Both the position numbers and the translations under genes were made by a program. Below are positions 59,374-64,000 of a stretch of 64,000 nt of DNA, piece by piece. The stretch is from Actinomycetes bacterium (GTDB lineage Bacteria; Actinomycetota; Acidimicrobiia; Acidimicrobiales; RAAP-2). Where the stretch lies: assembly GCA_021806045.1 (NCBI GenBank), contig JAJZDI010000002.1, positions 124,001 to 188,000 on the forward strand, written 5' to 3'. The notes under the pieces were generated by a model that saw only the letters and a list, made by a program, of their open reading frames with translations, did not search any database and was not told where the DNA came from. How positions within the stretch are numbered: the first letter of the stretch is position 1; each line of letters begins with the position of its first letter.

Positions 59374-61794
59374 TCAACGGGGCCGGGTGCGTCCCCGGAC
59401 CCGCTGGAGCACCCGTCGCCCGAGGAACGGTGCCAGATAGCGCGGCGCAGCGACGATCGTCGCCGGCACCAGGCCGGGAGTCAGCGACGACCGGAGGCAG
59501 GCCCGCGCCTCTTCCTTCTGTCCCATGAGCCCGAAGGCGACGGCGAAGCGGAGGTGGTGCCATGACTCGATCTGCCGGTCCCGGAACGGTCGCCGGCCGT
59601 CGTGCCCCGGCCCTACTTCCCGCTGCACGACGCGGAGCGCGGCCCGGTGGTGCCGCACCAGGTCCTTGCTGTAGCCCTCGCTGACATCCGTGTAACGCAC
59701 CAGGGGGAGGTCGACCTTGACGATCGATCCGAGATGGGCGAGGCGCACCCACAGGTCCCAGTCCTCGGCACCGTCCAGATCGGGATCGAACCCGCCTGCC
59801 CGGCACAGCGCGTCCCGGCGGGCGAGGACGGTCGACGTCTGGAACCGGTTGAGGAGCACCAGCTGTTCCAGCGGGACATCGGACACGGGATCGGAGCCCC
59901 CTGCTGCGGGCGCCGGGCCGGTCCCGTCCCGCCGCCACTCGGTCGCCACCGCCACGACGCCGGGACGGTCGCGCACCGCCCGGAGCTGCCGCTCCAGCTT
60001 GTCGGGCAACCATGTGTCATCCGCATCGAGGAAGGCGATCCACGGCGACGCCACCCGCGCGATCCCCGCGTTGCGGGCACGGGACGGACCCGAGCACGGC
60101 TGCTGCACCAGCGTCACCCGGTCGACGAACGAACCGGCCACCGCTGCCGTCGCATCGGTCGACCCGTCGTCGACCACGACGATCTCGGCCACCGGCACGG
60201 TCTGCTCCAGCACGGACCGGATGGCCGCGGCGAGCGTCGCTTCCCCGTTGTGGGCGGGGATCACCACGCCGATGGGCCCGGAACCGCCGGCGGCCTGCGG
60301 ACGCGCCGGTCGGGCGCCGAGCGCGAAACCCGCCACCACGCGATCGTCGAGTGCCACGCTGCGGCGGCCGAAGCGCTGGGACTGCTCGTTGCCGCGCCCG
60401 GTGATGAGCAGGGTGTCGCCGGGAGCCATCGCTGCGACGGCCTGTTCGATGGCCCGGGCACGGTCCAGCTCGGTGCGGACCTCTGCCCGGCCCGCGGGTG
60501 CGGCGCTCCGGAGCTGGTCCACCAGCGACGCCGGATCCTCGCCACCGGGGCTGTCGGTGGTGAACGTCACCACGTCCGCCTCGGTCGCCGCCGCTGCCAT
60601 CTGCGGCCGCTTCTCCCGGTAGCGGTCTCCCCGGGCGCCGAAGACGAGATGGACGCGTCCAGGGGTCACCTCACGGGCCGTCGTCACCAGGGCGGCCAAC
60701 GAGTCCGGGGTGTGCGCGTAGTCCACCACCACCAGCCGATCGGCGTCGGGCACGATCTCGAACCGCCCGCTGGGCGCCGCCGCCCGGGCCAGGGCCGCGG
60801 CCACGTCGTCCCCGTCAACACCCACCGCGCTGGCGGCCAGATAGGCGGCGGCGACGTTCGAAGCGTTCACCCGTCCCACGACGGGCGACCGGAGAGTGCG
60901 CAGGCCGTCGGGACCGGCCACGGTCACCTCGATCCCCTCCAGGCCGAGGGATCGCACGGCGATGCGCACGTCCGCGTCGGGCCCGGCGCCGAACGTCGTC
61001 ACCGGCACCTCGCACCGGTCGGCCAGGCGGCGACCCCACGTGGTGTCCACGCAGACCAGCGCCTGCCGGCACTGGTCGGCGTCGAACAGGCGTGCCTTGG
61101 CCCGCCAGTACGCCTCCATGTCGCCGTGGAAGTCCAGGTGCTCGGGGCTGAGGCCGAGGAAGACGGCCACGTCGAAGAGGATCCCACCCACCCGGCCCTG
61201 TTCGAGCCCGTGGGAGGAGACCTCGACAGCGGCGGCCCACCCGCCGCTGGCCACCACGGTGGCCAGGTCGGCCTGGAGCTCGGGGGCCTCGGGAGTGGTC
61301 AGTGCGGCCGGCGCCACCAGCCTGCCGCCGACAGACGCGCCCGTCGACGTGATCTGACCGGCAGGGCGGCCGGCCGCCTCGAGCGCCACCCGGGTCAGCT
61401 CGCAGGTGGTCGTCTTGCCGTTGGTCCCCGTGACCCCGACCAGGGCAAGCGCCCGTGCAGGCTCCCCGTGCACCAGTGCGGAGACCGGACCGGCGGCCGC
61501 CCGGGCCGACGGGACCACCAGCTGGGGCACGGCGAGCGGGAGCCGCCGCTCGACGACGAGGGCGGCCGCACCGCGCTCGACCGCCGTTCCGGCCAGATCG
61601 TGGCCGTCGACACCGGCTCCTGGCACCGCGATGAAGAGATCACCGGGCGTGACCGCCTCGGCTCGCATGGTGACGCCCGTCAGGCGTGCGTCACCCAGGC
61701 GCACCGACGACGGCACCGCATCCTCCAGCGTCGACAGGTCGACGCCGTCCGTGTCACGCATCGACGTGGGCGCGACCGTACGTGGGAGCTCCAT
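59374..61794 (-). CDS. Fused MurE-like Mur ligase and family 2 glycosyltransferase
   Basis: 806 residues in one uninterrupted frame. Residues 1-~490 are a complete Mur ligase: P-loop VGVTGTNGKTTT (119-130), TTPEAPELQ (166-174), SSHGLEQGR, carbamylated-lysine segment YWRAKARLF (Lys233), SGRFEIV, DYAHTPDSL and GARGDRYREKRP. The MurE specificity motif DNPR reads DSPG (414-417). Residues ~505-806 are a GT2 enzyme: GVVIPAHNGEATLAAAIRSV, VVDDGSTDATA, FLDADDTW (DxD) and GGFDPDLDGAEDWDLWVRLA. No transmembrane segment. A ligase that adds an amino acid to a UDP-muramyl or related precursor, joined to a sugar transferase, is inferred. ATG 61794; ATG 61761 possible. Confidence 0.88.
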   Translation of the reverse strand: MELPRTVAPTSMRDTDGVDLSTLEDAVPSSVRLGDARLTGVTMRAEAVTPGDLFIAVPGAGVDGHDLAGTAVERGAAALVVERRLPLAVPQLVVPSARAAAGPVSALVHGEPARALALVGVTGTNGKTTTCELTRVALEAAGRPAGQITSTGASVGGRLVAPAALTTPEAPELQADLATVVASGGWAAAVEVSSHGLEQGRVGGILFDVAVFLGLSPEHLDFHGDMEAYWRAKARLFDADQCRQALVCVDTTWGRRLADRCEVPVTTFGAGPDADVRIAVRSLGLEGIEVTVAGPDGLRTLRSPVVGRVNASNVAAAYLAASAVGVDGDDVAAALARAAAPSGRFEIVPDADRLVVVDYAHTPDSLAALVTTAREVTPGRVHLVFGARGDRYREKRPQMAAAATEADVVTFTTDSPGGEDPASLVDQLRSAAPAGRAEVRTELDRARAIEQAVAAMAPGDTLLITGRGNEQSQRFGRRSVALDDRVVAGFALGARPARPQAAGGSGPIGVVIPAHNGEATLAAAIRSVLEQTVPVAEIVVVDDGSTDATAAVAGSFVDRVTLVQQPCSGPSRARNAGIARVASPWIAFLDADDTWLPDKLERQLRAVRDRPGVVAVATEWRRDGTGPAPAAGGSDPVSDVPLEQLVLLNRFQTSTVLARRDALCRAGGFDPDLDGAEDWDLWVRLAHLGSIVKVDLPLVRYTDVSEGYSKDLVRHHRAALRVVQREVGPGHDGRRPFRDRQIESWHHLRFAVAFGLMGQKEEARACLRSSLTPGLVPATIVAAPRYLAPFLGRRVLQRVRGRTRPR

Positions 61795-61889: not shown

Positions 61890-62879
61890 TCAGGCGCCGG
61901 TGCCCTCGAGCACCCGCCGCGGCGTGTCGACCAGCATGGCCTGGACCTGGTCGTCGGTAACGCCGTGGGCGAGCAGGTAAGGCACCACGTCGTCATGGAT
62001 GTGCAGGTAGTGCCAGTCGGGCATGAACGCCAGCACGTTGGGGTCGATCCAGTCGATGTAGCACGCCGCATCCTGGGAGAGGACCATCTGGCTGGCCAGG
62101 CCCCGTCGGCACAGCTCTACGACGATGTCGCACCGATCCTCGAAGGTCATGCCCTGGGTGATGCCGAACCGGTCCATGCCGAGCACGAACCCGGCCTCCG
62201 CCAGCTCGGTCAGGTGGTCGGCGTCGGTGGAGTCGCCGCTGTGGCCGAGGACGACCACCCGGGGGTCGACGCCCTCCTCGTCGCATAGCACCCGCTTCAC
62301 CTCGAGCCCGGTCCGGGTGGTCGGGTGGGTGTGCACGGTGATCGGCGTGCCCGTCTGCCGGTGGGCCCCGGCCACCGCCCGCATGACCCGCTCCACTCCA
62401 GGCGTCATCCCCTCGGCGTCGATGGCGCACTTCAACATGCCGGCACGCACCCCGGTGCCGGTGATCCCGTCCACGATGTCCCCCACGAACAGGTCGACCA
62501 TCGGATCGGGCACGTCCATCCCGAGTGCGGCGTTGAGGGCGGGCCCCCGATGGTGGAAGAAGAAGGGGACGCTGTCGTAGGTGTAGCAGCCCGTCGCCAC
62601 CACGATGTTCAGCTCGGGCACACGCTCGGCCACCCGCACGATCCTGGGCAGGTACCGCCCGAGGCCGATCACCGTCGGGTCGACGATGGTCCGCACGCCC
62701 TGGGCGGCCAGCGCCCCGAGCTTTGCCGCCGCGTCGGTGATCCGTGCCTCCTCGTCGCCCCATTCCTCGGGATAGTTCTGCTGGACGTCAGCAGTGAGCA
62801 CGAAGACGTGCTCGTGCATGTACGTGCGCCCCAGCGCGGCGCTGTCCACCGGTCCCCGAACCGTCTGTACCTCAGCCAT
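61890..62879 (-). CDS. Phosphotriesterase-family metal hydrolase
   Basis: 329 residues. Binuclear metal ligands of the PTE family: His22 and His24 (MHEHVF), Lys150 (MLKCAID), His183 (VHTHPT), His213 (LGHSGD) and Asp270 (LSQDAAC). Most members cleave lactones or other esters; true phosphotriesterase activity is rare and cannot be claimed. ATG 62879 with GGAGGGACC upstream. It lies ~100 bases after the PLP-enzyme gene in the same direction, so the two may be one operon. Confidence 0.92.
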   Translation of the reverse strand: MAEVQTVRGPVDSAALGRTYMHEHVFVLTADVQQNYPEEWGDEEARITDAAAKLGALAAQGVRTIVDPTVIGLGRYLPRIVRVAERVPELNIVVATGCYTYDSVPFFFHHRGPALNAALGMDVPDPMVDLFVGDIVDGITGTGVRAGMLKCAIDAEGMTPGVERVMRAVAGAHRQTGTPITVHTHPTTRTGLEVKRVLCDEEGVDPRVVVLGHSGDSTDADHLTELAEAGFVLGMDRFGITQGMTFEDRCDIVVELCRRGLASQMVLSQDAACYIDWIDPNVLAFMPDWHYLHIHDDVVPYLLAHGVTDDQVQAMLVDTPRRVLEGTGA

Positions 62880-62978: not shown

Positions 62979-64000
62979 TCATGCCGGTGGCAGGCCCTGC
63001 TGGACGTCGAGCATCTCGGCCATGACCATACTGATGAACTCGTCCGCTTCGTCGGTCAGCCCGCCGGCCACGCCGCCGTAGATGGCGCCGGACAGCGGCT
63101 GCTCGTCGGGGTGCTGGCGGGCGTGCGCCACCGCGTCGGCCAGATCGGTGGCGAACGTCTCCACCACCCCGGGCTGGGTCTGGGGACGGGTCACGGCCAT
63201 GTGGAGCGCATTGGGGTACTGCTGCCCGTTGAAGCGCCACCCCCGGGCACGCATGAAGTCGTTGACCAGGTAGATGTCGAACTCGTCGGATGTGAAGCTG
63301 AAAAGGAAGGACGGCGACCCGAGGATCCGCAACTCGGGATGGGAGCGCACCGCCTCCTGCATCCGCGCCGAGGTCTCGAAGATCCGGGCGGCGTAGCGCC
63401 GGTAGCCGTCACGGCCCAGGTGGACCATCGATGCCCACGTGGCCGCCAGCAGGCCCACCGAGCGGGAACCGTCGATCCCGGGCGAGGCGTACTTCCCCCC
63501 GCTCCACCCGGCCAGGGTGAAGTACTGGCCGTTGCGGAGCGCCCGGTCGCGGAACAGCAGCGTCGAGGTCCCCTTCAGGGCGTAACCGTACTTGTGCGTG
63601 TCGGCCGACAGGCTCGTCACCCCCGGTACCCGGAAGTCGAAGGCGGGGATGGGATAGCCGAGCTCCTCGCCGAAGGGGAGGATGAACCCCCCGAGGCAGC
63701 CGTCCACATGCAGGCCCGTCCCCCGCTCCAGGGCCAGTTGGCCCAGGTCGGCGATGGGGTCGATGGTGCCGTAGCCGTAGTTGCACGCCGAGCCGATCAG
63801 GGCCACCGTGCTGCCGTCGACGTGGTCTGCCACCCAGTTGAGGTCGACCTGGGTGGTCACCGGATCGACCGGTGCCCGCCGGAGCTCGATGCCGAACAGG
63901 TGACAGGCCTTGTCGAAGGCGGGGTGGGCCGTCTCCGGCTTGACCACGTTCGGCCGGTCGATCCCCCGCGAGGCTCCCTGCTCCCGGTAGGCGAGCATGG
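62979..64000 (-). CDS. PLP-dependent decarboxylase/sphingosine-1-phosphate-lyase-like protein (5' partial)
   Basis: The C-terminal ~339 residues are visible; the start lies beyond the right edge (the Met at 63998 is inside the family's LAYRE segment). PLP-binding lysine in SADTHKYGYALKGTSTLLFR, cofactor aspartate region GLHVDGCLGGFILPFGEELG, and NVVKPETAHPAFDKACHLFG are typical of sphingosine-1-phosphate lyase and related group II decarboxylases. In bacteria these may cleave long-chain-base phosphates or decarboxylate amino acids. Substrate undecided. Confidence 0.88.
   Translation of the reverse strand, partial: MLAYREQGASRGIDRPNVVKPETAHPAFDKACHLFGIELRRAPVDPVTTQVDLNWVADHVDGSTVALIGSACNYGYGTIDPIADLGQLALERGTGLHVDGCLGGFILPFGEELGYPIPAFDFRVPGVTSLSADTHKYGYALKGTSTLLFRDRALRNGQYFTLAGWSGGKYASPGIDGSRSVGLLAATWASMVHLGRDGYRRYAARIFETSARMQEAVRSHPELRILGSPSFLFSFTSDEFDIYLVNDFMRARGWRFNGQQYPNALHMAVTRPQTQPGVVETFATDLADAVAHARQHPDEQPLSGAIYGGVAGGLTDEADEFISMVMAEMLDVQQGLPPA

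Follow-up and report, generated by a model that had tools for sequence, protein, structure and literature searches.

A MurE paralogue joined to a family 2 glycosyltransferase in an acidimicrobial genome is a derived form of a wider two-gene unit and has an altered predicted substrate pocket

The window examined here is a 64,000-nucleotide stretch of contig JAJZDI010000002.1 (positions 124,001 to 188,000, forward strand) from assembly GCA_021806045.1, an Actinomycetes bacterium of the class Acidimicrobiia; positions are those of the window, and all window coordinates given below refer to its minus strand. A single ATG-to-TGA frame (59374..61794) encodes a protein of 806 amino acids (aa) in which a complete MurE-fold ligase is followed by a family 2 glycosyltransferase (GT2). 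We refer to this protein as MurE2-GT2, MurE2 being a name coined in this analysis for the ligase paralogue that is paired with a GT2. The ligase is composed of an N-terminal domain (PF01225, Mur_ligase; aa 38-88, 61531..61683), a central ATPase domain (PF08245, Mur_ligase_M; aa 121-321, 60832..61434) and a C-terminal domain (PF02875, Mur_ligase_C; aa 343-468, 60391..60768). A linker (aa 490-507, 60274..60327) connects it to a GT2 domain with a helical tail (aa 508-806, 59377..60273), within which the Glycos_transf_2 match (PF00535) spans aa 510-628. All four Pfam domains exceed their gathering cut-offs (114.8 bits versus 23.3 for PF00535), and the protein also passes the TIGR01085 murE profile (386.7 bits, cut-off 257.3). 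The ligase half is thus a MurE family member by TIGR01085, with three Mur domains and the ATP and carbamyl-lysine residues, and the other half is a GT2 by its PF00535 score, a DxD-type motif and a GT-A fold. An earlier note, made from the letters alone, had described one intact 806-residue frame that joins a MurE-type ligase to a GT2, and both points were borne out.

Membership in narrower families is a different matter. Among 25 of 53 NCBIfam families, no equivalog cut-off is passed by the fusion: the two models for ligases that add diaminopimelate (DAP) are not reached (NF001124, 395.9 versus 476 bits; NF001126, 362.7 versus 373), nor is that for lysine-adding MurE (NF010628, 242.2 versus 536). 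The MurE-MurF fusion model NF008896 matches only aa 38-495 (377.5 versus 1023 bits), leaving its C-terminal MurF half without a counterpart. Motifs expected of both activities are nevertheless in place. The ATP P-loop GVTGTNGKTT (aa 120-129, 61408..61437) retains K127 and T128 in all 41 paired MurE2 rows and all 32 rows of MurE from the division and cell wall (dcw) cluster in the alignment described below, and the same is true of K233 (61096..61098), which we take to be the equivalent of the carbamylated lysine. In the transferase half, DADD (aa 590-593, 60016..60027) and EDWD (aa 677-680, 59755..59766) are invariant in 30 GT2 rows; as in other GT-A GT2 enzymes, the former is presumably the donor/metal motif and the latter likely the catalytic-base motif.

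The fusion recurs in relatives. A sister genome (L035) carries it at 80% identity, and five more fused loci, 52-54% identical, can be aligned across the linker, so that fused copies are found in at least seven genomes (the window, L035, L036, L037, L038, L039 and L042). Comparison of the window and sister genes gave ratios of non-synonymous to synonymous substitution rates (dN/dS) of 0.154 for the Mur half, 0.215 for the GT half and 0.078 for aa 485-507 around the linker, the last from only 23 codons; these values indicate that both halves of the fusion are under purifying selection. AlphaFold2 modelled the full chain with a mean predicted local distance difference test (pLDDT) score of 93.5 and a predicted template modelling score (pTM) of 0.90, with a dip to 78-79 in the blocks covering aa 491-510. 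Together with the alignment of fused loci and dN/dS, this places the linker close to the earlier estimate of about 490-505. The ligase tree requires one change to the fused state among paired rows, and the six fused rows included in the transferase tree form one clade with 98% support in the Shimodaira-Hasegawa-like approximate likelihood ratio test (SH-aLRT). The possibility that an assembly artefact or a frameshift joins two separate genes draws some plausibility from unfused relatives, where the two genes overlap by 4 bp in 6/8 same-strand pairs measured, so that a single indel could fuse them; yet the same fusion in at least seven independently assembled genomes, the purifying selection on both halves and the single clade in both trees leave it practically no chance. 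The missed stop or frameshift between the halves that the earlier note had considered is likewise at odds with the sister copy, and its question of whether the fusion is conserved is answered by the seven genomes.

The genome that contains the window (3.10 Mb in 43 contigs) also possesses a stand-alone MurE on contig 39 (L115), 46% identical. This gene is followed by mraY (a MraY-family match) and preceded by a gene that we take by eye to be FtsI; the names FtsI and FtsZ are throughout our own assignments by eye. As the genome has a separate dcw murE, the fusion is a paralogue rather than its sole MurE. The earlier observation that the fusion sits outside any dcw cluster was correct, and the separate murE that it proposed to look for is the one on contig 39. 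More widely, of 31 genomes that bear the pair or the GT2, 30 have at least two MurE-type genes by TIGR01085; the exception (G013) is 81% complete, and the count leaves out L038, L039, L042, L044-L046, L049, L050, L058, L065 and others. With the window genome included, a MurE adjoining FtsI and/or MraY is seen in 30/32 among the loci fetched; of the other two, G803 carries its MurE together with MurF on a contig of 3 kb, and G013 lacks such a MurE. Gene content thus shows MurE2 to be a predicted MurE paralogue, additional to the dcw MurE, that goes together with one GT2 subfamily, either as a neighbour or in a fusion.

Several observations on other Mur genes accompany this inventory. In dcw loci of the class (L115, L121, L193-L209), mraY directly follows murE with no murF between them. 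In the window genome, the highest-scoring MurF-like gene is on contig 30 (189.7 bits; cut-off 288.6), and in all seven class genomes tested the MurF profile falls below its cut-off. A duplicated MurF or MurJ was considered for the window genome and rejected, as one MurF match (besides MurE-type and weak Mur matches) and one MurJ match were found. Bacillota genomes from the same inventory contain six further Mur-ligase-like genes (L220, L224, L227, L229, L231, L232): three are divergent, having AHNP/AMNP-type motifs and nothing like DNPR, and the others have the altered motifs DSPY, DDPY and DRPA. Kitasatospora humi has a third MurE-type gene (L216, 3839-5344) with DNPR and with no MraY, FtsI or GT2 in the fetched stretch, and an extra 490-aa murE homologue is noted for Kitasatospora azatica in the available part of PMC7601586.

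The pairing of MurE2 with the GT2 extends well beyond the fused copies. Among 61 genomes (the window's own and 60 relatives), MurE2 was recognised by its motifs in eight, fused in four and as a neighbouring gene in four, while 22 other relatives' MurEs that were read (L013-L034) all have DNPR. When 395 genomes of the class were searched with a profile of the GT2 half, 13 matched at E <= 3e-78, followed by a gap and then three at about 1e-52 to 1e-51. In the 12 GT2-bearing class genomes besides the window's, MurE2 adjoins the GT2 in 12/12, on the same strand in seven and on the opposite strand in five. A search of 395 class genomes with a MurE2 profile listed 55 matches at E <= 1e-157, the best 30 of which were read: the top 14 have MurE2 motifs and the other 16 have DNPR. 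Judged by these best 30 of 55 matches, MurE2 is found in 14/395 class genomes, although a MurE2 as strongly diverged as L229 (346 bits) would escape such a count; 13 of the 14 are the GT2 genomes, with an intact GT2 adjoining or fused, and the 14th (G254) carries a 676-aa fusion (L263, 6591-8621) that keeps the MurE2 signature in its ligase half and has a truncated GT2 half without the GAEDWDLW motif. In a sample of 396 genomes of the phylum, only the window's own genome and two class members matched.

Outside the class, neighbouring pairs are present in Sulfobacillus and other bins labelled Bacillota, and one bin labelled Actinomycetes (L051) nonetheless groups with the Bacillota pairs. Kitasatospora also has the pair, with a MurJ-family gene between MurE2 and GT2. 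Across lineages the two genes occur in tandem, convergent and divergent arrangement, and the fused form arose once. Carriage on plasmids was considered and rejected: 17 plasmid records matched, none with one place covering 80% of the query, and the record that was read (L266, a Streptomyces plasmid) has a DNPR MurE with no GT2 annotated beside it. The gene on this circular plasmid (5944-7428) is a stand-alone MurE, and two further Streptomyces plasmids matched likewise.

The history of the pair was examined in trees of the ligase. Loci that had been fetched a second time (L002, L116, L211, L213, L219) were removed before alignment; L220, L224 and L227 (divergent) and L040 and L058 (a copy and a near copy) were dropped before the first tree, and the remaining five non-dcw, non-paired rows before the second. 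As long as those five divergent extra Mur ligases were kept in, two changes, across weak branches, were required for the paired clade; without them it formed one side of a branch with 97% SH-aLRT support, a value obtained by a quick method. Within family f26, the branching order of MurE2 equals that of the dcw MurEs, as expected for a vertically inherited gene. On this reconstruction, the fusion arose once from a conserved pair of neighbouring MurE2 and GT2 genes and is a derived form of a wider two-gene unit, a point that the earlier note had missed.

The substrate pocket was compared in an alignment of 41 paired MurE2 rows, which include one duplicate locus (L040 = L152), and 32 dcw MurEs. 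Three columns overlap by less than 5% between the groups, with aa 465 coming next. At aa 388, in the GARG motif (60631..60633), all 41 paired rows have arginine and all 32 dcw rows glycine; we take this residue to lie within the pocket. At aa 417, the last residue of DSPG (aa 414-417, 60544..60555), which replaces the DAP-binding DNPR, arginine is absent from 41/41 paired rows and present in 32/32 dcw rows. At aa 467, in GRGNE (aa 466-470, 60385..60399), which replaces GKGHE, arginine in 41/41 stands against lysine in 31/32, three residues before the amine-binding glutamate. Four columns overlap by less than 15% when gap-majority columns are left out; without that filter, three fall below 5% and seven below 15%. 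As controls, Bacillota were compared with other rows within each group, which yielded 38 columns below 5% in the paired group and 15 in the dcw group. Lineage alone therefore separates many columns, and the three positions count because they hold across lineages common to both groups.

The rest of the active site is largely shared. Asp414 and Glu470, the latter aligned with E. coli Glu468, are invariant in both groups, and the P-loop lysine, the carbamyl-lysine position, His361, Asp358 and Arg344 are kept in 41/41 paired rows. The ATP residues, the carbamyl-lysine and most of the residues checked that we take to contact UDP-MurNAc-dipeptide agree between the groups; exceptions among paired rows are P168 (Leu in 3), S193 (Thr in 5) and N310 (His in 1), and among dcw rows H195 (Ile/Val in 8). 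MurE2 is thus shown by alignment to have kept its predicted ATP site and most of its predicted UDP-MurNAc-dipeptide site and to have lost the arginine predicted to hold the DAP carboxylate. One could suppose that the ligase half lacks catalysis and serves as a scaffold or regulator, in the manner of PAP11, the MurE-like subunit of the plastid RNA polymerase, since MurE homologues do occur as plastid RNA polymerase subunits among the solved structures; the five positions kept in every paired row and the dN/dS of 0.15 make this very improbable.

What the altered motif may mean can be gauged from characterised enzymes. According to the available parts of PMC3829189, DAP-adding MurEs bind the free carboxylate of DAP through the motif Asn and Arg (Arg416) and its distal amine through the motif Asp and Glu468 (E. 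coli numbers 413-416 and 468 are from the same source); the lysine MurE of Staphylococcus aureus, in which the carbamylated Lys is also named, keeps the acidic pair and lacks the motif Arg; its Asn407Ala mutant is totally inactive; overexpressing this lysine enzyme leads to lysis; and the motif alone does not fix MurE specificity. DNPR is described as conserved among experimentally authenticated MurEs in the part of PMC3681970 available. MurE2 thus departs from the motif of DAP-adding MurE (EC 6.3.2.13), having DSPG in the window protein and no Arg in 41/41 paired rows. It resembles lysine-adding MurE (EC 6.3.2.7) in keeping the amine-binding D414 and E470 and lacking the motif Arg in every paired row, and differs from it in having Ser in the window protein where the S. 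aureus enzyme has Asn407.

Because the acidic pair that would hold an amine is kept and the Arg that would hold a carboxylate is lost, a basic diamino acid (lysine or ornithine) is the best single guess for the substrate, and MurE2 probably adds a non-DAP, perhaps Lys/Orn-like, residue. R388 and the Ser at aa 415 (33/41 paired rows) speak against MurE2 being simply the lysine enzyme. The term MurE-type in the earlier note accordingly holds for the fold and does not extend to DAP ligation. A redundant or condition-specific DAP ligase, with the GT2 merely a frequent neighbour, would account for the overall fold and most active-site residues being those of dcw MurE; we consider it improbable, as the DNPR Arg is lost in all 41 rows and the pairing persists in tandem, convergent, divergent and fused form, with co-occurrence within the class.

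The transferase half is similarly distinctive. Its donor/metal motif and EDWD recur throughout the 30 GT2 rows, together with a signature of the subfamily (NRFQTST, DGxEDWD, AWHHLRF-type). Modelled alone (pLDDT 90.3), it matches in fold WrtF (Z 25.6), TarS, TarP, RmlT, chondroitin polymerase and AvpGT; WrtF, TarS, TarP and RmlT are envelope-glycan enzymes, while AvpGT was crystallised with the nucleoside Ara-A. The chain is thus shown by these comparisons to combine two catalytic-looking enzymes with a conserved pairing and an altered predicted pocket.

Neighbouring genes offer further hints as to function. The Kitasatospora set consists of MurE2, a MurJ-family gene (PF03023, 235 bits, one tested), GT2 and a second MurF; TIGR01143 finds two MurFs over its cut-off in each of two Kitasatospora genomes, and K. 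humi has its set distributed between two contigs. The GT2 of family f26 has an adjacent VTT/DedA gene (recognised by Pfam in two cases and by eye in five more), and DedA proteins are reported as undecaprenyl-phosphate flippases in the portion of that literature available. A DUF2142 gene precedes MurE2 in two genomes (one Pfam-tested), and three genomes carry an FkbM methyltransferase gene roughly 1 kb away from the fusion (Pfam-tested in one, assigned by similarity in the other two); another such gene adjoins an unpaired Bacillota GT2 (L062, Pfam-tested). These MurJ-family, MurF, DedA, DUF2142 and FkbM neighbours point to envelope sugar work linked to a lipid carrier.

Genes flanking the fusion in the window were also considered as partners. 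Those at 61890-62879 and 62979-63998, which precede the fusion and share its strand, are of the phosphotriesterase family and the pyridoxal phosphate (PLP) decarboxylase type and are kept in the sister; among 37 loci compared they are common only to it, and they were rejected. The DUF2510 membrane protein to which the earlier note had drawn attention does have a DUF2510-like tail, at 21.2 bits against a Pfam cut-off of 24; its partnership is unsupported, being common only to the sister among the same 37 loci, many of which have short flanks.

We propose, with a probability of roughly 0.48, that MurE2-GT2 is a bifunctional enzyme acting in a side branch of the synthesis of peptidoglycan precursors, in which ligation of a non-DAP residue is followed by glycosylation and the product goes into the wall. 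MurE2 would add a non-DAP residue, perhaps Lys or Orn, to UDP-MurNAc-dipeptide; the GT2 half might then move a sugar from a nucleoside diphosphate (NDP)-sugar onto the ligase product or, at the membrane, its undecaprenyl-linked form; the glycosylated product might enter the wall or an associated envelope glycan. In the fused protein, the intermediate would be channelled from one site to the other. The envelope glycopeptide role raised by the earlier note fits the wider gene context, the joint action of ligase and GT2 being a proposal here as it was there.

A number of observations weigh against this proposal. Seven Bacillota loci of the GT2 subfamily have no MurE2 in the fetched DNA; L059 and L061 start at a contig edge, and L062, L063, L064, L066 and L067 do not. 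Conversely, the unpaired Bacillota ligase L229 has all three MurE2 signatures and no GT2 beside it, its genome carrying a GT2 on another contig (L059), and the GT2 of the G254 fusion is truncated. Within the pocket, aa 415 is Ser in 33 paired rows and Asn in only 8, when the Asn407Ala mutant of S. aureus MurE is reported inactive (PMC3829189, in part); R388 is an extra positive charge for which a simple lysine site has no need; and aa 417 varies (G 29, Y 6, N 4, D 1, H 1), so that the substrate may differ between lineages. As for context, the DedA, DUF2142 and FkbM neighbours are lineage-limited, the window fusion's own neighbours (phosphotriesterase-like, PLP decarboxylase-like and DUF2510-like) are uninformative, and the fuller set of Kitasatospora does not hold generally, since the window genome contains a single MurF-like gene and a single MurJ gene.

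Some of these data could also be accommodated if the pair used UDP-MurNAc-peptide or a different nucleotide sugar to make a small glycopeptide, either secreted or intracellular, such as a natural product or signal, instead of a building block of the wall. The sporadic spread (14 of 395 class genomes from the best 30 of 55 matches, and three of the 396-genome phylum sample, the window's own included), the occurrence of the pair in two phyla and the crystallisation of AvpGT with Ara-A would suit such a product. No recurring genes for non-ribosomal peptide synthetases (NRPS), polyketide synthases (PKS) or exporters were recognised beside the pair, however, in gene lists inspected by eye and in part Pfam-tested; the MurJ-family, MurF, DedA and DUF2142 neighbours suit envelope work on a lipid carrier; and the f26 MurE2 genes branch as if vertically inherited. 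We consider a small glycopeptide rather unlikely.

The side branch of wall-precursor synthesis that we favour could have a broader form, which we hold to be possible though doubtful: a second murein-precursor branch, yielding a glycosylated, alternatively cross-linkable non-DAP stem peptide, that exists in lineages of two phyla, among them several acidophiles, and has its fuller set of MurE2, MurJ-family gene, GT2 and MurF in Kitasatospora. The link of carriers to acidophily (for example, Sulfobacillus, and presumably Acidimicrobium) is an impression, and Kitasatospora does not fit it. Relatives tabulated in the available part of PMC12263773 have meso-DAP in most cases and dd-DAP in one, and the portions available of that paper and of the literature on Acidimicrobium walls contain nothing on a second wall chemistry.

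Which amino acid occupies position 3 of the stem peptide is one of the choices that define a bacterial wall, and MurE sets it. If the proposal is true, some bacteria run two position-3 chemistries or make a new type of wall glycopeptide. MurE2 genes may be annotated as ordinary MurE because they pass the TIGR01085 profile, and the three-residue signature (aa 388, 417 and 467) can be used to find more of them; Sulfobacillus and Kitasatospora are culturable carrier groups.

In the open-licence PMC literature, as represented by titles and the beginnings of abstracts, no Mur ligase-GT2 pair or fusion appeared. Other single-chain fusions of wall-precursor enzymes are on record, namely MurE-MurF and MurB-MurC (Bordetella pertussis; Verrucomicrobium spinosum; PMC6420597 and PMC4803751, both available in part); here, in contrast, the partner is a GT2 rather than a Mur enzyme, and the ligase is a paralogue. 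The GT2 half has the GT-A GT2 fold in common with WrtF, TarS, TarP, RmlT and SpsA (best Z of each 22-26), but it has its own subfamily signature and is fused to, or lies beside, a Mur ligase. Among structural matches of the fusion model, S. aureus Lys-MurE is the top one (4c12/4c13; Z 45.0, root-mean-square deviation 2.1 A over 477), and it resembles MurE2 in the absent motif Arg and the kept amine-binding Asp and Glu; MurE2 differs in having DSPx or DNPG rather than DNPA, in the extra R388, in being only 29% identical and in its GT2 pairing. The MurEs of E. coli (1e8c_A) and Mycobacterium tuberculosis (2xja_C), at Z 43.9 each, have the same fold, ATP motif, carbamyl-lysine position and most of the UDP-MurNAc-dipeptide residues checked, whereas MurE2 lacks the DNPR Arg, has Arg at 388 and 467, and lies outside the dcw cluster in genomes with a normal MurE. 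Taken together, MurE2 has the fold and probably the reaction type of MurE, and differs from it in its predicted substrate pocket and its GT2 partner.

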